IMG/VR virus record: IMGVR_UViG_3300014962_000017
Coordinates: 1 to 27,591 of that record
Reading direction: 5' to 3' (one strand)
DNA length: 27,591 bases
From: a virus
Shown here: positions 272-25,810 of the stretch, in pieces
Position numbering within the stretch: position 1 is the first letter of the stretch
Layout of the letters: each line of letters opens with the position of its first letter
Position numbers and translations under genes: made by a program
Notes under the pieces: model-generated
Databases searched by the model: none
Told to the model about the DNA's origin: nothing
What the model saw: the letters and a program-made list of their open reading frames with translations, nothing else

Positions 272-1194
272 TGTCCGACCTTCTCAACAGCCTGAACGTG
301 CCTTCCGCAGAGCCGTCCAAGTCCTGGGCGCAGGAAGTGGCCGAAGCCGGGGCAGACGCCCCTGCAAGCGTTCCAGAGCCTGTTGCCGCCGATCCGGCAC
401 CGACCATGCCGGAAGCGCAGGATGCCGCTCCTGAACCGTCTCAGCCGCAGGAAACGGCCACGGAAGAACATGACCGCCGCGTTCCCCTCAAGGCTCTTCA
501 GGAAGAGCGCCAGAAGCGGGCCGAATACGAGCGCAAGCTGGCCGAATATGAGCGCCAGATGGCCGAGATGCAGGGCTATATGGCCGCCATGCAGCAGCAG
601 GGCCAGCCGCAGCAGGAACAGTTCCAGGAACCCGATCCCGAGACGGACCCCATCGGCGCTCTGAAATACGCCAAGGAACAGCTTCGCCAGATGCAGGAAA
701 TGACGGCGCAGCAGCAGTATGCCCAGCAGTTGAACGCCGTGGCCTATCAGGCGGCAACACAGTATGCCCAGCAGGTTCCCGACTACCGGGAAGCCTATCA
801 GTATGCGCTTCAGTCCCGCGCACAGGAACTTGCCGCCCTTGGCACCCCTGAGAATGCCATTGCACAGATTCTCCAGCGCGAGGAGATGACCCTTGTCGAT
901 ACCGCCGTCAGGAACGGTAGGAACCCGGCAGAGGCCATCTATCACTTCGCCAAGGCCAGAGGCTTCCAGGGCAAGCAGGCCGCAGCCGCCGCTCCTGTGG
1001 CTCCCGTGGCCCCGACCAATCCCGCGCTCCAGCAGGCCAAGCAGGCGGTTGCCGTCTCTGCCTCTGCTGGTGGCGCTCCCGCGTCCAAGGGTGAACTGTC
1101 CGTTGCCGAGATTGCCAATCTCAAGGGCGCGGCGTTCGATCAGGCGTGGAACAAGCTATTCGGTGGCAACAAGTCATCGATGTTTCGTGAGTAG
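271..1194 (+). CDS. Putative capsid assembly scaffolding protein
   Basis: The protein has 307 residues, is strongly hydrophilic, and is rich in Gln, Ala, Glu and Pro. Residues 1-65 are acidic and Pro/Ala-rich and probably disordered. Residues about 70-190 are long charged and Gln-rich helices (for example EYERKLAEYERQMAEMQ) with coiled-coil character. The C-terminus is short and basic. This composition, directly upstream of the major capsid gene, is typical of scaffolds that organise capsid subunits and then leave the prohead. The ATG overlaps the preceding TAA, and GGAG lies just upstream. No catalytic motif is seen. The scaffold role rests on composition and position, not on a recognised signature. 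Confidence 0.7.
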   Translation: MSDLLNSLNVPSAEPSKSWAQEVAEAGADAPASVPEPVAADPAPTMPEAQDAAPEPSQPQETATEEHDRRVPLKALQEERQKRAEYERKLAEYERQMAEMQGYMAAMQQQGQPQQEQFQEPDPETDPIGALKYAKEQLRQMQEMTAQQQYAQQLNAVAYQAATQYAQQVPDYREAYQYALQSRAQELAALGTPENAIAQILQREEMTLVDTAVRNGRNPAEAIYHFAKARGFQGKQAAAAAPVAPVAPTNPALQQAKQAVAVSASAGGAPASKGELSVAEIANLKGAAFDQAWNKLFGGNKSSMFRE

Positions 1195-1219
1195 CAACGC
1201 TATTCACTGATTTCCTACC

Positions 1220-1299
1220 GGTGCCGCCGACCTTAACGGGCGTTTGCTTTCGCTGATCCGGCGTCAAGGATGCACAGGTGCCGCCGACCTTGATGGGCG
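1220..1299. repeat. Two near-identical 23-bp direct repeats upstream of the capsid gene
   Basis: The repeats lie at 1220-1242 and 1277-1299, 57 bp apart. Both begin GGTGCCGCCGACCTT and end GGGCG, and they differ at only two positions. They fall in the 169-base gap between the scaffold stop and the capsid start, the longest gene-free stretch among the late genes. Candidate roles are a late promoter or regulator-binding site, or a transcript element controlling capsid expression. No sigma70-like promoter or U-tract terminator is evident here. Confidence 0.6.
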
Positions 1300-1363
1300 C
1301 TTCGCCGCTGGCCTGCGTGATGGCTGGAAATCTCCAAAACCATAGCAATTCATAGGCAATCAA

Positions 1364-3565
1364 ATGGCTACTACCGATTTCCCGGTGAATAGCCCGCACG
1401 CCGTAAAGCTTTGGTCGAAGAAGATTGCGCGTGAGGCTCTCAAGGAGACGATGGCAAGCAAATTTCTTGGCACGTCTTCCAACAACCTCATCCAGGTCTT
1501 TGACGACACCAGCAAGGGCGCGGGCGACCGTATCCGTGTTCCTCTCCGTCTCCAGCTTTCTGGTCGCGGCGTGGGCGAAACCGAAGCACTTGAAGGCAAC
1601 GAAGAGAGCCTTTCGGTGTACTACGATGACTGCCTCATCAATGATATGGCCCATGCCGTCCGCATGAAGGTCACGATTGATGCGCAGCGCGTTCCGTTCT
1701 CCGTGCGTGAGGAAGCCCGTCTTGGTATCCAGGATTGGTACGCTGACCGCATTGACACGGCCATCGCCAACCAGCTTACCGGCTACACCGCTCAGTCGGA
1801 CACGCTCTACACCGGCAACAATGCCGCTGTTGCGCCGTCCTCTGGCACGGGTGCTGACCGCCGCTGGATCATCCGTCAGCAGGACGATGAAACGGACCAC
1901 ACTTCGGAAGCCTCGCTTTCGACCTCGGACACGTTCAGCCTCAAGCTGCTGGATCGTGCCGTGGCGATTGCGAAGACCTCCAATCCGCTCATCCGTCCCA
2001 TCAAGGTAGGCGCTCAGTCCTACTATGTGGCGTTCCTTCACCCCTATCAGGTGAAAGACCTCCGTACCTCCACCAACACAGGCGACTGGCTTGACATCCA
2101 GAAGGCCGCGATGGCTGGCGGTGATGTGATGGATAACCCGGTGTTCAGCGGTGCTTACACGATCCACTAGGGCACCCCGGCCAGTGATGGCCGTGCAAAA
2201 AACTCCGTGAATTGCTGGAACATCTTGTTGTAACGAGTAAACAATCTTGTTATAACAAGACAATCAGCAGCCAAGCGGAATCCTTATGAAAACATGCAGT
2301 AAATGCGGGTGTGAGAAGCCCGAGTCTGAATACTGGTTTAACAAGGCAAAGAACCGCTTCAACGCCATGTGTCGCACATGCCAAGCTGACCTTCGGGAAT
2401 CTTGGAAAACGCGGAACAAGGAGAAGGTTGCAGAGAAAAACCGCCAATGGGCACTGGCTAACCCTGACAGGGTGAAGGCAGCGCAAGAACGGTGGAAAGA
2501 ACGCAACCCAGGCATTGCAGCCAAGCGCATGAGAGAATGGCGTCTTGCCAATCTTGAACGGCACAAGGCAACAAATCGACGCAATGACCAGCGGATCAAG
2601 GATGAATGTTACAACGCATATGGCGGATATATTTGCGCCTGCTGCGGAGAAACACAGCCCAAATTCTTGTCTTTGGACCACATCAACAATGACGGCGCTG
2701 AACATCGCCGCCAAGTTGCTGGAATGAACGCTGGTGGCGGCAAGAAAATCTACAGTTGGCTCATTGCCAACAACTTCCCGCCGGGTTTTCAGATACTCTG
2801 CATGAATTGTAATTGGGGCAAGGCCAGAAACGGCGGTGTTTGCCCACATAAGGACTCCGAAGGTTCAACGACTAGCCGAAAGGCGTAGGATCAAGCGATC
2901 CGAAGCGCGGAGCCCCTGATCTCAGGGTGAAGATATAGTCTGATCTGCATGGTGACATGCAGCGGCCCGCAAGGGCGGTTCCGGGTGCGAACCGGAACGA
3001 ACAAACGCTAGGTGTGTATAACGGCGTGGTCCTCCATGAGTGGACGCGTCTTCCCAACGGCATCGGTGCCAACTCGGCCAACACCCGTCGCGCTGTCTTC
3101 TGCGGTGCGCAGGCGTGTTCGCTGGCTTGGGGACAGGGCTACTCCGAAGCGCCCAAGTATATCGAAGACTTAATTGATAGGTCCGTCGTCGGGGAACCGG
3201 CGAATGAAAACTGTGTGAACTCGGGGGAAGTCCTCGCCGCGTAAGCGGACGGAAAATCCCGAGCCAAGCCCCGCAGGGGGAAGGCGTAACGACTAGGGCA
3301 CAGGCCCGTAGGATCAAGTGATCCGAAGCGCACAGCACCCTGAACGGGTGATGATATAGTCTGCTCTGCATGGAAACATGCAGCGGTTGCTTTCACTGCC
3401 GAAGGCAACGGGTAGGGATTAACGAACCCTGCTGAACATCCGGTGTTCGATTACGACAGGCAGTTCGGTGTCTCCGTCCAGACCATCATGGGCGCGAAGA
3501 AGATGCAGTTCAACAGCAAGGACTTCGCCACCATCGTCATGTCAACCTACGCCGCAGCGCCGTAA
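1364..3565 (+). CDS. Major capsid protein (N4gp56-like), gene split by two group I introns
   Basis: The exons are 1364-2155, 3008-3170 and 3444-3565, joined as 1077 nt encoding 358 residues. Exon 1 ends on a codon boundary after Ala264. Exon 2 opens with CTA-GGT-GTG (LGVYNGVVLHE) and ends on the first base of a Leu codon, which exon 3 completes before FDYDRQFG. I recognise the sequence as the N4gp56-type capsid family from the N-terminal pattern and the conserved C-terminal blocks (GVYNGVVLHE, RRAVFCGAQA, FDYDRQFGV). Without splicing, translation would stop four codons into intron 1, giving a truncated 268-residue product, so splicing is needed for a complete capsid subunit. The ribosome-binding site is weak. 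The splice points are inferred from P1/P10 pairing and frame continuity. Confidence 0.88.
2156..3007 (+). ncRNA. Group I self-splicing intron 1 (ORF-containing) in the capsid gene
   Basis: The intron is 852 nt. P1 forms between exon end GGUGCU and the internal guide GGCACC (2171-2176), with the expected U-G wobble at the 5' splice site. Guide bases CUAG (2167-2170) pair with the first four bases of exon 2 as P10. Core elements are visible: P near 2210-2220; Q at 2262-2276 (AATCAGCAGCCAAGC); P4 as GCUG/CAGC; R at 2863-2874 and S at 2930-2941, giving P7 as GACUA/UAGUC; a P8 hairpin GGATC-AAGC-GATCC; and a P9 hairpin at 2945-2962 with a GTGA (GNRA) loop. The last base is G3007 (omega-G). The HNH gene lies between Q and R. 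Confidence 0.92.
2286..2888 (+). CDS. Intron-encoded HNH homing endonuclease
   Basis: The protein has 200 residues. An N-terminal zinc ribbon (C4, C7, C29, C32) is followed by about 70 residues of basic helix with repeated RxxNP/RxW-type units, probably for DNA contact. A C-terminal HNH nuclease domain shows CACC near 117-120, LDH at 130-132, and CMNCNWGKA near 172-180. Homing endonucleases of this kind cut intronless alleles and drive intron spread, so the expected target is the uninterrupted capsid gene around the 2155/3008 junction. The last codons overlap the intron's R element (P7), so protein and ribozyme sequence constrain each other. The ribosome-binding site is weak, as is common for intron ORFs. 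Confidence 0.9.
   Translation: MKTCSKCGCEKPESEYWFNKAKNRFNAMCRTCQADLRESWKTRNKEKVAEKNRQWALANPDRVKAAQERWKERNPGIAAKRMREWRLANLERHKATNRRNDQRIKDECYNAYGGYICACCGETQPKFLSLDHINNDGAEHRRQVAGMNAGGGKKIYSWLIANNFPPGFQILCMNCNWGKARNGGVCPHKDSEGSTTSRKA
3171..3443 (+). ncRNA. Group I intron 2 (ORF-less) in the capsid gene
   Basis: The intron is 273 nt. P1 is GACU^UA paired with UAGGUC, with the U-G wobble at the splice site (exon base T3170). P4 is CTCGGG/CCCGAG (3220-3225 with 3258-3263). Q is at 3255-3269 and ends GAGCCAAGC. R (3286-3295) and S (3351-3362) form P7 as GACTA/TAGTC. P8 is GGATC-AAGT-GATCC at 3311-3324. P9 is CTGCATG-GAAA-CATGCAG at 3366-3383, a GNRA loop. Ending at G3443 is the only nearby choice that restores the capsid frame. 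It carries no nuclease gene, and its 3' half closely resembles that of intron 1. Confidence 0.88.
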
Positions 3566-3580
3566 GGGAGGGGTAATCAT

Positions 3581-4021
3581 ATGGCTACCGTAACCTTTAC
3601 GACCTCGACAGCGCAGGCTCCGACCTACAAGGCCAATGCTGGCATCACCAAAGTACAGACCATCGTCACCACGGCCACCTTCTCGGCTGGTGATGTGTAT
3701 GTGCTGAACAACATCAAGCTTCCGCATCGCTCTATCGTGACTTCGGTCTCGGTGCGCGGTTCTGCGCCTGATGGTTCCTATCTCTTTGAGGTGGGCACTG
3801 TCGGTTCGGGCGGAACGATTGACCTGTTCGGCTCCCGCACGGTCTCTGCCGGTGCCGTCCTGGCGCTGACGCAGCAACCCGTTGGGCTTCCGGCCACCAT
3901 CTCGGTTTCCGATGATGCCGTGGACCGCTACCAGACGCTTGCCATCCGCGTGGATGGCGCAGCGACCTCTCCCACGACCTCTGTCTCTCTCCAGTTCGTC
4001 GTGTCGTACTACTGCCCGTAA
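3581..4021 (+). CDS. Putative capsid decoration or head-fibre-like protein
   Basis: The protein has 146 residues, is rich in Thr, Ser, Val and Ala, has almost no charge, and is predicted to be nearly all beta-strand. It contains SYLFEVGTVGSGG and repeated VxVS/LxLxxV strand patterns. A strong ribosome-binding site (GGGAGGGG) ends 7 bases before the ATG, fitting an abundant product. It follows the capsid gene by 15 bases, where small decoration or cement proteins usually lie. I do not recognise a named family, so the role is inferred from position and composition. It could also be a minor structural protein. Confidence 0.6.
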   Translation: MATVTFTTSTAQAPTYKANAGITKVQTIVTTATFSAGDVYVLNNIKLPHRSIVTSVSVRGSAPDGSYLFEVGTVGSGGTIDLFGSRTVSAGAVLALTQQPVGLPATISVSDDAVDRYQTLAIRVDGAATSPTTSVSLQFVVSYYCP

Positions 4022-4083
4022 GGCAGCGGGGCGGGGGAGCATATCTCCCGCCCCACCCAATTCACCCATCATCAGGAGCATCA

Positions 4084-5550
4084 ATGACCCTCGCGGATGC
4101 AATCAAGGCGTTGCAGGACGAACACCTTTCCATGACCAAGGAAGGGTGCGCTGATCCACAGAAGTGGGCCAGCCTTGAGGCGAGGTACATTCACCTTCTG
4201 AACCGTCATCCCGACAGGCCGGAACTTTTGTTCCAGCTTGGCACGTATTACATGCAGCATGACAAGCGCGGGCTTGCCATTGCGCTGATTGAGCGGTCCA
4301 TCAAGTGCGGTGCGCTTGGTGCAGGGCCGTATCTGAACATCGCTGCGGCCTACAAGCAGGACCACAACGATGAGAAGGCCCGCGAGTATTACGACAAGGC
4401 ATTGGCCGAAGCCGAGAAAAACCCGCCTCCGGGCGAGGTGAATGTTGATAAGGCGTTTGCCCTCCACGGCATTGGATCGCTCTATGTGAATGCGGGCCAG
4501 CCTGCCATGTGCAAGCTCTGGTCCGAACGCGCCCTGGCGGTTGATCCCAATGACCGGCACGCCATGTGGAACAAGGGGCTTGCCCATCTCGAACTTGGCG
4601 AGTGGGAGGAAGGCTTCAGGATTTACGATACTGCCGGGTTCGACACTACCGGCGCGATGCCCACCGAACGCAAGCTCAAGACCTATGGCGGCTTGCCGAA
4701 GTGGGATGGCACACCCGGCAAGACTGTCATCACCTATGGCGAACAGGGTGTTGGCGACGAAATCATGTTCTGTTCGATGATCCCCGATCTGATGAAGGAT
4801 TGCCGGGTCATTATTGATTGCGACCATCGCATTGAGAAGATGCTGAAACGGTCATTCCCCGAGATTGAGGCGGTCTATCCCACTTCCGATGTGAACGCGC
4901 CGTTCCCGTGGAAGGAAAATCACACCGTTGACGCCTATGTGCCGATGGGTTCGCTGGGCCGTCATTATCGCAAGACGGATGCCGACTTCCCCAAGGTTGC
5001 CTATCTCAAGGCAGACCCGGTGAAGATCGATGAATGGGGCCAGCATTTGGCAACCCTGCCCAAGGGGCTGAATGTCGGGATCAGTTGGGCCGGGGGGCTC
5101 AAAAAGACGCGGTTCGACAAGCGCACCATCCTTCTGGAGCATCTGGCCCCGGTTCTGAAGACCAAGGGCGTCAATTTCATCTCGCTCCAGTACCACAAGT
5201 GGGCGGCTGACGAATGCGCCAATATCGGCACGAAGCTGGGTGTGCCGATCTACCATTGGGGCGACGCCATTGATGACTACGAGGACACGGCAGGGCTGCT
5301 GATGAACCTTGATCTGGTCATCACGGTCAATACCTCACTGCATCACCTGTCGGGTGCCTTGGGCGTGAAGCAGTGGTGTCTGACCCCTGTCTGTGTCGCA
5401 TGGCGCTATGGGCAGAAAGGCGGTTCGCCATGGTACGGCAATTGCGAGATGTACCGACAGAAAAAGGATGGCGATTGGAAAGGCGTGATTGCCCGCGTGA
5501 CTGATGACTTGGGCAAACTGGTGCAGTCCTCGCAGAAGGTTGCCGCCTGA
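4084..5550 (+). CDS. TPR-repeat protein with a C-terminal glycosyltransferase-9-like domain
   Basis: The protein has 488 residues. Residues 1-200 are helical tetratricopeptide-like repeats (for example LLFQLGTYYMQHDKRGLAIALIERSI, shown in part). Residues about 215-480 look like a GT-B glycosyltransferase related to heptosyltransferase/GT9 proteins: a first-lobe loop YGEQGVGDEIMFCS near 216-229, an inter-domain VGISWAGG near 337, and a nucleotide-sugar-side stretch DLVITVNTSLHHLSGALG. TPR-GT fusions often glycosylate protein or envelope glycans. GGAG precedes the start. Its place between head and tail genes suggests modification of virion proteins, or of a host glycan used as receptor. Neither substrate nor donor can be read from the sequence. 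Confidence 0.75.
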   Translation: MTLADAIKALQDEHLSMTKEGCADPQKWASLEARYIHLLNRHPDRPELLFQLGTYYMQHDKRGLAIALIERSIKCGALGAGPYLNIAAAYKQDHNDEKAREYYDKALAEAEKNPPPGEVNVDKAFALHGIGSLYVNAGQPAMCKLWSERALAVDPNDRHAMWNKGLAHLELGEWEEGFRIYDTAGFDTTGAMPTERKLKTYGGLPKWDGTPGKTVITYGEQGVGDEIMFCSMIPDLMKDCRVIIDCDHRIEKMLKRSFPEIEAVYPTSDVNAPFPWKENHTVDAYVPMGSLGRHYRKTDADFPKVAYLKADPVKIDEWGQHLATLPKGLNVGISWAGGLKKTRFDKRTILLEHLAPVLKTKGVNFISLQYHKWAADECANIGTKLGVPIYHWGDAIDDYEDTAGLLMNLDLVITVNTSLHHLSGALGVKQWCLTPVCVAWRYGQKGGSPWYGNCEMYRQKKDGDWKGVIARVTDDLGKLVQSSQKVAA

Positions 5551-21889: not shown

Positions 21890-22936
21890 CTATGCACGCC
21901 GGAACGCCTTTGCGCTGGCCTTCTGATACTCGGGCGAATGGTGCCCATAGACCGTCTCCAAGGTCTTCGTGGATGTGCTGGTGAGGCCTGACACATCCCA
22001 CAGGTCAACGCCCGCCCGAAGCAGCCAAGTGGTTGCCGAATGCTTCAAGACATGTGGCGTCACGCCATCCACTTTCGCGGCCTTTAGGACCGCTTCCCAG
22101 CCCCTTTGCTGCCGGGTGATGGGTTTCCCCTTGTACCTTACAACCGCCGTCTGCGGCCCTTGGGATAGGTCCAGACGCGCCCAGCGCCTGACATGGGCCA
22201 AGAGCCGATCCGGCATCCTAGCGGCGTTCCGGCGCTTCCGTGTTTGCCTCTCGGCCTTGCCCGCCCGGTAGATGATCCCGGCCTCGGCATCCAGCCATCC
22301 GGCATCATCCGACTCGTACCAGCGCAACTTGAGGATCGTGGCGTGGCGAGTGCCAGTATAAAGCCCCAGCAGGATAAACCGGGCAACGTAGGGCAGACGA
22401 AGCTTGCGGGCCGCATTCAGCAGCCGCGCTACCTCGTCCCGGGTCAGTACCCGATCCCGCCCCGGCCCCTCTTCTGGCTTCCAGACCTTCGGCACGGCGT
22501 CCAATGGGCTTTCTACATGCCAATGGTTTATGGCCGCCTGTAGGGTGCCAAGTTCCCGGCGCACGGTGGACGGAGACACTTTTTTTCCCCGCTCTTGCGC
22601 GTAGTCCCGGCAGAGCCGCCCGTTTACATCCCGCAGAGTCTTGAGGCCGAAAAACTCCAGAAGTGGCCCGCCGTGGTAGCACATGGGCGGCATGGGATTG
22701 GTCTTGAGATACAACGCGATTACGTCTGCGACACTAATTTGAGCGGGATTGCGGGCGCTGGTGTCGATGGTCTTGTGTTCCGCGAGGTATTCCCCGAACC
22801 TTTTTTCAGCCCCCGCGTAATCGCCAGGGCCGCAGCCAGTGTCGATTTCCGTTCGGCCATCGATAATGACCCATCTGGGTTCACGGCCTTCCCGCTGTCT
22901 GAGATAAAGCCTTGCCGGGAGCCTCTTGCGCGGCAT
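21890..22936 (-). CDS. int: Tyrosine recombinase (integrase)
   Basis: The protein has 348 residues from ATG 22936, which follows GGAGG by 5 bases; a GTG 4 codons upstream would place the ribosome site inside the gene. Residues 1-60 form a small N-terminal domain, about 65-150 a SAM-like core-binding domain, and 160-348 the catalytic domain. Catalytic positions are R197 in TGTRHATI, H295 in PHVLKHS, H332 in YGHHSPEY and the likely nucleophile Y337. The Arg of the usual HxxR box is Lys298. It catalyses integration at the adjacent tRNA-derived core. Its 5' region overlaps the excisionase gene by 217 bases. Confidence 0.92.
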   Translation of the reverse strand: MPRKRLPARLYLRQREGREPRWVIIDGRTEIDTGCGPGDYAGAEKRFGEYLAEHKTIDTSARNPAQISVADVIALYLKTNPMPPMCYHGGPLLEFFGLKTLRDVNGRLCRDYAQERGKKVSPSTVRRELGTLQAAINHWHVESPLDAVPKVWKPEEGPGRDRVLTRDEVARLLNAARKLRLPYVARFILLGLYTGTRHATILKLRWYESDDAGWLDAEAGIIYRAGKAERQTRKRRNAARMPDRLLAHVRRWARLDLSQGPQTAVVRYKGKPITRQQRGWEAVLKAAKVDGVTPHVLKHSATTWLLRAGVDLWDVSGLTSTSTKTLETVYGHHSPEYQKASAKAFRRA

Positions 22937-23106
22937 TTTGACCTCCACTCCCTTATGTCGTTAGCCGTCACGAAATACGCTCTGCCGATCTTTTCGCATC
23001 CCAAGTCGCCTTTGTGAATCGCGCTCAGGAGGTGGGATTTCGTCACCCCGCCGTCAGGAAAGAACCGGGCGAGGGCAATATCCAGCGGCATGGGGTTGTC
23101 TGCCAT
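22720..23106 (-). CDS. Excisionase-like helix-turn-helix protein overlapping int
   Basis: The protein has 128 residues. Residues 1-60 form a winged/MerR-like fold of the excisionase type: MPLDIALARFFPDGGVTKSH, then GCEKIGRAYFVTANDIREWR. The C-terminal half is Ser/Ala/Lys-rich and probably disordered (LSMAERKSTLAAALAITRG). It runs in another frame through the first 217 bases of the integrase gene. Similar tails, from memory, occur in related alphaproteobacterial prophages, so the overlap seems conserved. It likely binds near the attachment site and directs excision. The ATG overlaps the preceding stop as TGATG. Confidence 0.78.
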   Translation of the reverse strand: MADNPMPLDIALARFFPDGGVTKSHLLSAIHKGDLGCEKIGRAYFVTANDIREWRSKCRARGSRQGFISDSGKAVNPDGSLSMAERKSTLAAALAITRGLKKGSGNTSRNTRPSTPAPAIPLKLVSQT

Positions 23107-24518: not shown

Positions 24519-24847
24519 GCTGCCCTCAAGGTGCGCTGTGTTGCTGAAAGTGAACGCCATGCTTCGATCCGCGCGAGAGCGGCGTCCTTAAGCGCCCGCA
24601 GGGTTTCCAGATCACCAGCCGCTTGCGCCTCTGCCGTGATGGCTTCTAGGTATGCATCTGACACCAGCGCATCCCGTTCCTTCTCAGCCACCGTTTTGGC
24701 GTCTGACCGGGCCATTTCGATTGCCTTGACGCGCTTGGTCATGCTTTCGGCCAGCACTGCCCGTTCCTTGGCCTTTCCTAGCGCACGGGCGTTCTGCACC
24801 AGCCAATCAAGGGCGGCAGATGCAGCATCGTCTGTCACGAAGCTCAT
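24515..24847 (-). CDS. Coiled-coil early protein next to ERF
   Basis: The protein has 110 residues, is almost wholly alpha-helical, and is rich in Ala, Glu and Arg (AKERAVLAESMTKRVKAIEM, VAEKERDALVSDAYLEA). The gene pair with ERF downstream-coupled by ATGA is common in temperate phages. It may be a recombination accessory protein. No named family is recognised. Confidence 0.65.
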   Translation of the reverse strand: MSFVTDDAASAALDWLVQNARALGKAKERAVLAESMTKRVKAIEMARSDAKTVAEKERDALVSDAYLEAITAEAQAAGDLETLRALKDAALARIEAWRSLSATQRTLRAA

Positions 24848-25548
24848 TCTGCGGCCTCAAGCTTGGTGTTCTGTTCAATGAACTTGATGTGCTGGGTGAT
24901 TTCGCCGTTGATGTATTCGCTCCAATCACCAAGCTTGCGAATGTCCAACAAGTTGTCGCGCTCCCATTGCGACACCTCACGAATGGTCTGGCACTTGAAC
25001 AGCGAGGCTTGCAGCGTCTTGTAGAGCGCGCGTGCTTCTTCCCGCTTCAGAAGCTGCTGGGGCTTTTCCTGCTGCTGTTCCTGTGGCTTGGGAGCTGTGT
25101 AGTCCTGAGGCTTGTAGGCATCCGCATCGGCACCGCCTTCAATCATGTCCCGATCACCCGTGGACACAAGGAACCGGCCTTTGAGGTATTCCTTGAGGGC
25201 ATAGGACTTTGCAGCACCGGAGGTTTGTGCGCCAGTGAGGGGCAGGGTGATGGTTGCCCGTTCGGGATCGTCTTCTGCACCGCCTTCATGGCGCAGTTTG
25301 AACTCATAGGTGATGCAAGCGTTCATCGTGACGCCGTTGCGGCCCTGTATGGGTTCCAGGCGATACGCAACCTCGTTCATGGACAGTGACAGGCCATGCT
25401 TTGCCATGAGCGGGCGAACGAGGTTCTTGAAGCTGTCAACGGACACGTAGTTGTATGAGCCGTGGCTGTTCTTTTCGTCCTTCTTGAGACTGTGAACTTC
25501 GTTCATCACGGCAGTCACGGCTTTGTGAAGTGCAGATTTGTCGGTCAT
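24844..25548 (-). CDS. erf: ERF-family single-strand annealing recombinase
   Basis: The protein has 234 residues from ATG 25548. Residues 1-150 carry the ERF core: HKAVTAVMNEVHSLKKDEKN, YNYVSVDSFKNLVRPLMAKH, then FKLRHEGG and a GAQTSGAAKSYALKEYLKGR block. Residues 165-185 form a Pro/Gln linker and the rest a C-terminal helical tail. ERF proteins anneal complementary single strands and help circularise the phage genome after infection. Its start overlaps the 21-codon micro-gene stop by ATGA. Neighbouring SSB-like and HNH genes suit a recombination module. Confidence 0.88.
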   Translation of the reverse strand: MTDKSALHKAVTAVMNEVHSLKKDEKNSHGSYNYVSVDSFKNLVRPLMAKHGLSLSMNEVAYRLEPIQGRNGVTMNACITYEFKLRHEGGAEDDPERATITLPLTGAQTSGAAKSYALKEYLKGRFLVSTGDRDMIEGGADADAYKPQDYTAPKPQEQQQEKPQQLLKREEARALYKTLQASLFKCQTIREVSQWERDNLLDIRKLGDWSEYINGEITQHIKFIEQNTKLEAAE

Positions 25549-25610
25549 AACCCGGCTCCGATGAGCATGAATGTGAAGAGTGCGAGGCAGATGAGGTAAT
25601 CGCGGAGCAT
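25545..25610 (-). CDS. 21-residue hydrophobic micro-protein
   Basis: The reading frame is 21 codons: MLRDYLICLALFTFMLIGAG then L. Almost all of it is a membrane-spanning segment. It starts at ATG 25610, which overlaps the upstream stop by one base (TGATG), and it has a strong ribosome site GGAGG 7 bases upstream. It ends in ATGA with the ERF start, so both ends lock into the operon chain. Its coding is judged real because of these junctions; the role is unknown (perhaps a membrane micro-protein or translational coupler for ERF). Confidence 0.65.
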   Translation of the reverse strand: MLRDYLICLALFTFMLIGAGL

Positions 25611-25810
25611 CACAAGTCCTCCGCATCGTCGGGTAACGGTGCTAATTTTGAGGAGCGCACCAAATCATAACCCAATGCTCTTGCTGCATTTTCGAGGCAC
25701 ACAAGACCGACATCGGCGCACTTGCGTTGATTGTTTCCCTCCATATGCCGAGCATGACTGAACCAGTTTCTTGCATATGTGATTTGGTAGTACGCGCTAT
25801 TGATGTTCAT
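25610..25810 (-). CDS. Hypothetical early protein
   Basis: The protein has 66 residues and begins MNINSAYYQITYARNWFSHA. It contains a Cys/Leu-rich helix (CADVGLVCLENAARALGYDL). The ATG overlaps the upstream stop (TGATG). The C-terminal helix includes the phrase ALGYDLV, similar to ALGFDLV in the upstream gene, perhaps a shared module. The function is unknown. Confidence 0.62.
   Translation of the reverse strand: MNINSAYYQITYARNWFSHARHMEGNNQRKCADVGLVCLENAARALGYDLVRSSKLAPLPDDAEDL

Follow-up and report, generated by a model that had tools for sequence, protein, structure and literature searches.

In a tailed and probably temperate phage, the gene for the major capsid protein is split by two insertions which we read, with a probability of about 0.9, as self-splicing group I introns of IA-like type, the first (intron C) homing by means of its own enzyme and the second (intron D) probably passive. 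The window, that is the whole 27,591-nucleotide stretch analyzed here, comprises bases 1–27591 of a 39,039-base virus record (IMGVR_UViG_3300014962_000017) and carries the gene (PF13252) at 1364–3565 on the plus strand, interrupted by intron C (2156–3007) and intron D (3171–3443). Under the proposed mechanism, the guide of each intron would pair with the upstream exon to form a P1 ending in U·G, and each intron would leave the capsid mRNA by the two guanosine-initiated transesterifications of group I biochemistry, giving a 358-aa capsid protein. The intron C enzyme would cut an intron-free capsid allele near site C, and repair would then copy the intron in, while D, lacking an endonuclease, would probably be passive and have come with the capsid gene by inheritance or co-conversion. 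Both would stem from a lineage of introns and endonucleases, the nearer members of which reside for the most part in phage major capsid genes.

An integrase gene on the minus strand (21890–22948) indicates that the phage is probably temperate. The nearest chromosomal relatives of the capsid protein, at 66–67% identity, are found in Vineibacter terrae, an alphaproteobacterium, and Reyranella sp., which suggests alphaproteobacterial hosts. Two other features of the window were recorded: a second, free-standing HNH gene of another type (PF01844; 23553–23930, minus strand), and an ARAGORN tRNA-Cys (24977–25054) that is probably a false call, lying inside a gene-sized frame on the opposite strand (24844–25626).

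The split capsid gene and its two insertions

The frame that opens at 1364 ends at a stop at 2170, midway through the capsid protein, and on its own matches PF13252 (Phage_capsid_3) with E 2.1e-54. Joining 1364–2155, 3008–3170, and 3444–3565 yields a 358-aa protein that matches the same family over nearly its full length (residues 6–356, E 1.8e-73) and the major head protein family phrog_334 (E 4.7e-80), bearing out the preliminary description, which had predicted a single 358-residue capsid-family protein once both introns are removed. When all T^...G^ pairs near each intron were scored for capsid-family fit and P1 pairing, the best were 2155/3007 and 3170/3443. The predicted features, all on the plus strand, are as follows.

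1364–2155, plus strand: capsid exon 1, 264 codons (PF13252 match; dN/dS 0.10–0.13 against intron-free relatives)
2150–2176, plus strand: P1 of C, 5' exon GGUGCU (2150–2155) with guide GGCACC (2171–2176), U·G at the splice site (sequence; top candidate of the splice-site search)
2156–3007, plus strand: putative group I intron C, 852 nt (Rfam 35 bits; 66.5 bits in a model built without C; exact empty site in relatives)
2167–2170, plus strand: CUAG in the P1 loop of C, pairing with exon 2 CUAG (3008–3011) as P10 (sequence)
2286–2888, plus strand: HNH/endonuclease-VII-like endonuclease gene, 200 aa, in the P6a loop of C (phrog_2255, E 7.1e-13; phrog_1035, E 1e-10; conserved motifs)
2870–2940, plus strand: P7 of C, GACUA (2870–2874) with UAGUC (2936–2940) (sequence and alignment)
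3008–3170, plus strand: capsid exon 2, 163 nt (spliced-protein match; dN/dS 0.01–0.04)
3167–3183, plus strand: P1 of D, 5' exon GACU (3167–3170) with guide GGUC (3180–3183), extended by loop pairs (sequence; splice-site search; folding)
3171–3443, plus strand: putative group I intron D, 273 nt, without endonuclease (Rfam 72.7 bits; fold z = −4.86; site also occupied in L009)
3291–3361, plus strand: P7 of D, GACUA (3291–3295) with UAGUC (3357–3361) (sequence and alignment)
3444–3565, plus strand: capsid exon 3 including the stop codon (spliced-protein match; dN/dS 0.06–0.13)

The preliminary description had named both insertions group I introns, each with a P1 carrying a U-G pair, P7 as GACUA/UAGUC, P9 with a GNRA loop, and a terminal G, and the first also with a CUAG/CUAG P10. 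All of these elements are present (the P9 loop of C is GUGA), and covariance models, compensatory changes among five related introns, and empty sites in relatives agree, so that the assignment of C and D to group I, IA-like, is supported. A covariance search had been proposed as the check on both segments: D passes the cut-off of 50 bits for Rfam RF00028 (Intron_gpI) with 72.7 bits (E 6.9e-17), whereas C as a whole stays below it (35 bits, E 1.3e-5) because a 200-codon ORF in its P6a loop splits the core. A model trained on four related introns with C left out nevertheless recovers both halves of C in the correct order, the 3' half with 66.5 bits (E 1.8e-18) and the 5' half with 16.8 bits. Intron_gpI had no further match elsewhere in the 39-kb record. 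In the alignment of only five related sequences, with the helices taken from one of these, standard pairs occupy 95.3% of pair cells, and both partners have changed in 22 of 48 pairs; no shuffle out of 500 reached this level, and sliding the partners by 1–3 columns destroyed the signal. A group II intron or an intein was rejected for either insertion, as Rfam names group I and both contain in-frame stops.

Unguided minimum-energy folding of D with short flanks gives nested helices P1–P6a, P7.1, P7.2, P8, and P9, and none of 200 shuffles was equally stable (z = −4.86). The helices of D comprise P2 with a GNRA loop, P3 (CUGUGUG/CGCACAG), P4 (CUCGGG/CCCGAG), P5, P6, P6a, P7.1, P7.2, and P8; P9 has a GAAA loop and is followed by two more hairpins before the intron ends in G. 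Its P1 holds only four exon–guide pairs, and its P10 is weak. Introns of subgroup IA carry two hairpins, P7.1 and P7.2, after the 5' strand of P7 and before the 3' strand of P3. Both hairpins are present, also in the D fold, and covary in the alignment, which points to subgroup IA (IA1 or IA2). We infer that both introns self-splice from the capsid mRNA.

Every exon has a dN/dS of 0.01–0.13 against the intron-free L004, L005, and L006, indicating purifying selection; the exons downstream of the insertions are therefore still translated as capsid protein. This weighs heavily against a pseudogene, a capsid gene broken by two dead or dying insertions in a defective phage copy in which nothing is spliced. 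An endonuclease-free D and a C below the Rfam cut-off would fit such decay, but guides, P7, and terminal G are intact in both insertions, which moreover sit at P1-defined sites, and we regard it as most improbable.

The computed product of the unspliced RNA is 268 aa long and that with C alone removed 342 aa, with a wrong C-terminus where it runs into D, so that virion production can fairly be expected to depend on both ribozymes. One could see in these products a regulated switch, in which the introns do splice and partly spliced or exon-skipped RNAs provide shorter capsid forms or delay the capsid. The 342-aa protein would be such a form, the short exon 2 is flanked by two related introns, and skipped exons have been documented for Twort and for one multi-intron gene of Bastillevirinae (PMC11878797). 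Here, however, an RNA lacking exon 2 would be out of frame (313 aa, the tail unrelated), and no alternative product is conserved, since relatives without introns, or with introns at other sites, encode the same protein; we consider a switch unlikely and retain simple removal of both introns as the preferred reading.

Occupied and empty sites in related capsid genes

Five IMG/VR contigs whose capsid proteins are 80–91% identical to that of the window (L004, L005, L006, L008, and L010) have the gene contiguous at both window junctions. Among capsid genes at least 80% identical to the window's, introns occupy four sites (A–D). In L007, an intron follows capsid nt 23 (site A, the exact junction being one pick among a few candidates) and has its endonuclease near the intron 5' end, outside P6a. 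L009 carries an endonuclease-free intron after capsid nt 94 (site B; Rfam 91.4 bits) and a second one at site D, exactly at the window's position, whose P6a holds an endonuclease; in the flanking stretches of intron and exon, identity to the window is 86–88%. The site-D intron thus exists in both forms, and the window copy is probably passive because its P6a is minimal where that of the relative carries the endonuclease. Site C is occupied exactly in three distant capsid genes (L025, L026, and L057), with a compensated P1 change from GGUGCU/GGCACC, the pairing in the window, to GGAGCU/GGCUCC. Neither the 3' end of intron C nor the end of exon 1, used as exact DNA probes, was met in a further contig, so the exact arrangement rests on one assembly. 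In the leader between the scaffold-like and capsid genes, the window also has two imperfect copies of GGTGCCGCCGACCTT.A.GGGCG (about 1219–1305), and L007 has a similar pair (about 2081–2160).

Two introns in one structural gene had been called uncommon beforehand; within this intron family the arrangement recurs. L009 and L088 each have two in the capsid gene, and two metagenome contigs of identical DNA (L187 and L188) have three group I introns in one PF13252-type capsid gene (1187–4873), separated by short exons and two of them containing different HNH-like ORFs. Two introns per capsid gene are therefore not a singular accident. A deposited complete phage genome, MW202512.1 (L111), contains at about 2286–3983 a capsid gene with an unrecognized group I intron at codon 31; the annotation divides this split gene into an "icea protein," a truncated capsid protein, and, in addition, a small protein labeled hypothetical.

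The intron C enzyme and its lineage

The endonuclease gene inside C, whose 3' end overlaps P7 and P7.1 of the intron, adds to the preliminary description. Its product matches HNH (phrog_2255) and endonuclease VII (phrog_1035) families, and cysteine pairs and a DHxNN ... LCxNCN motif are invariant in three intron enzymes, as in an HNH/endonuclease-VII-like enzyme; a Pfam search of this protein gave no HNH match and nothing else of use. Membership in the F-CphI (DHHRN) family was considered and rejected, as the enzyme has DHIN in place of the second histidine of the DHDH motif, which most F-CphI-family members conserve (PMC6083498). Judging by its motif, by where its gene lies, and by which sites are occupied or empty among relatives, the enzyme most likely cuts intron-free capsid alleles near site C and so drives homing.

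From two IMG/VR scans for relatives of the enzyme, the 80 best matches of at least 406 and the 80 best of 297 together yielded 138 distinct contigs, many of them close copies and not independent events. A capsid gene or exon lies within 2.5 kb of the enzyme in 124 of the 138 (104 P22-coat-type and 20 PF13252-type), as counted with capsid profiles built from members of the same set. Curated libraries agree with these profiles: 65 intron-adjoining peptides gave 53 matches to phrog_283 and nine to phrog_334 in PHROGs, both major head proteins, and 51 to P22_CoatProtein and eight to Phage_capsid_3 in Pfam. Among the remaining 14 contigs, four (L096, L165, L173, and L205) have the enzyme at the 3' end of a third capsid-like gene, confirmed by phrog_1357 for L096 and judged by eye for the other three; three are interrupted by contig ends, and about seven show no visible capsid gene. 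In L205, this third gene (791–2390) is itself interrupted by an insertion with its own ORF (1256–1819), and the HNH-enzyme relative at its 3' end is free-standing. The scan ranking favors relatives of capsid-intron enzymes, so that the preference is established only among the nearest relatives; those further away, in named phages, occupy other loci too, such as a ribonucleotide reductase gene. Model R1, run over 385 genomes of the class of Reyranella, matched in 42, and the eight best contexts opened contained no capsid frame, so an R1 match alone does not mark a capsid intron.

Eleven contigs of the first scan (L029, L030, L046, L054, L055, L059, L085, L086, L101, L103, and L104) carry the enzyme as a free-standing gene, with a scaffold-like gene on one side and an uninterrupted P22-type capsid gene directly downstream, often overlapping; L101 ends short of the capsid gene, which the nearly identical L104 shows. 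No ribozyme was detected around these 11 genes. Five of them fall, in the enzyme tree, inside a well-supported clade (100/99) of intron-borne enzymes associated with the same capsid type, a placement that fits interchange between the intron-borne and free-standing states, such as is described for collaborative homing (PMC6083498).

Over 110 nt, C and D share 81% identity in their 3' halves, and a common P1, GGAGCU/GGCUCC, is found in L026 (site C) and in L027 (site D plus one base), as might be expected if a recent duplication inside the gene, through reverse splicing or ectopic repair, had produced one intron from the other. The closest relatives of each intron lie elsewhere, however. Window D groups with the site-A intron of L007 (100/100) in a poorly resolved tree of ribozyme 3' halves and is identical to the L009 site-D intron over 63 nt, C falls nearest to introns of other phages, and its enzyme clusters (97/81) with the enzyme of L025, whose intron also occupies site C. 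A recent local copy is thus quite unlikely. The 3'-half tree, poorly resolved as it is, does not follow the insertion site and gives no ground for site-by-site inheritance of the ribozyme; recombination between introns is likely.

Taken as a whole, the lineage is probably one of HNH enzymes, in IA-like introns or free-standing, that has specialized on the major capsid genes of phages, with at least two, probably three, sequence-dissimilar types of these genes as targets. It would use many sites, with up to three introns per gene, and pass between intron-borne and free-standing forms, making the capsid gene a recurrent homing target. We found no description of this preference in open-licence papers.

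Known systems and significance

The mechanism itself, self-splicing followed by homing, appears canonical, and the window introns would add further examples to a known class. In mycobacteriophage LittleE, a probable group I intron (about 820 nt) that contains an endonuclease ORF interrupts the major capsid gene; splicing was shown by RT-PCR and N-terminal sequencing, and an intron-free relative has the empty site (PMC3706429). The window shares the capsid gene split by an endonuclease-bearing group I intron and the empty site in a relative. LittleE differs in belonging to another phage group and in its single intron, whose ORF is encoded on the opposite strand and was linked chiefly to LAGLIDADG enzymes by the authors; the window has two introns, one endonuclease-free and the other with a sense-strand HNH/endonuclease-VII-like enzyme, and splicing here is read from the sequence. 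Two or three group I introns per gene, mostly IA-like and many with HNH enzymes, are known from Bastillevirinae and Twort (PMC11878797). These parallel the window in being IA-like, HNH-associated, and several to a gene, but the Bastillevirinae introns reside in DNA polymerase, terminase, and nucleotide-metabolism genes, as the authors state for most split phage genes (PMC11878797), unlike the major capsid gene targeted here.

F-CphI of cyanophage S-PM2 is a free-standing endonuclease-VII-like enzyme encoded beside an intron-bearing psbA and acts in collaborative homing (PMC6083498). The window enzyme is likewise endonuclease-VII-like, and its relatives include free-standing genes beside the target; it is itself intron-internal, however, and those free-standing relatives adjoin uninterrupted capsid genes, not an intron-bearing psbA. 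In phage PhiPA3, the intron-encoded HNH enzyme Gp210 acts against the virion RNA polymerase gene of a rival phage, and competition was shown (PMC11620839). The likeness lies in an intron-encoded HNH enzyme directed at an essential gene, that for virion RNA polymerase there and probably that for the capsid here; by this analogy, the C enzyme may interfere with intron-free rival phages.

Capsid genes of this group may be annotated as fragments, as in MW202512.1, and warrant caution in genome annotation. A survey of phage introns asks why these elements colonize core nucleotide- and DNA-metabolism genes (PMC11878797); the family described here is found mainly in a major structural gene, with up to three introns. 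The set of capsid genes with zero to three introns, together with the free-standing enzymes, would make it possible to test how a mobile intron is assembled from a free endonuclease and a ribozyme, and what part capsid-targeting endonucleases may play in competition between co-infecting phages.
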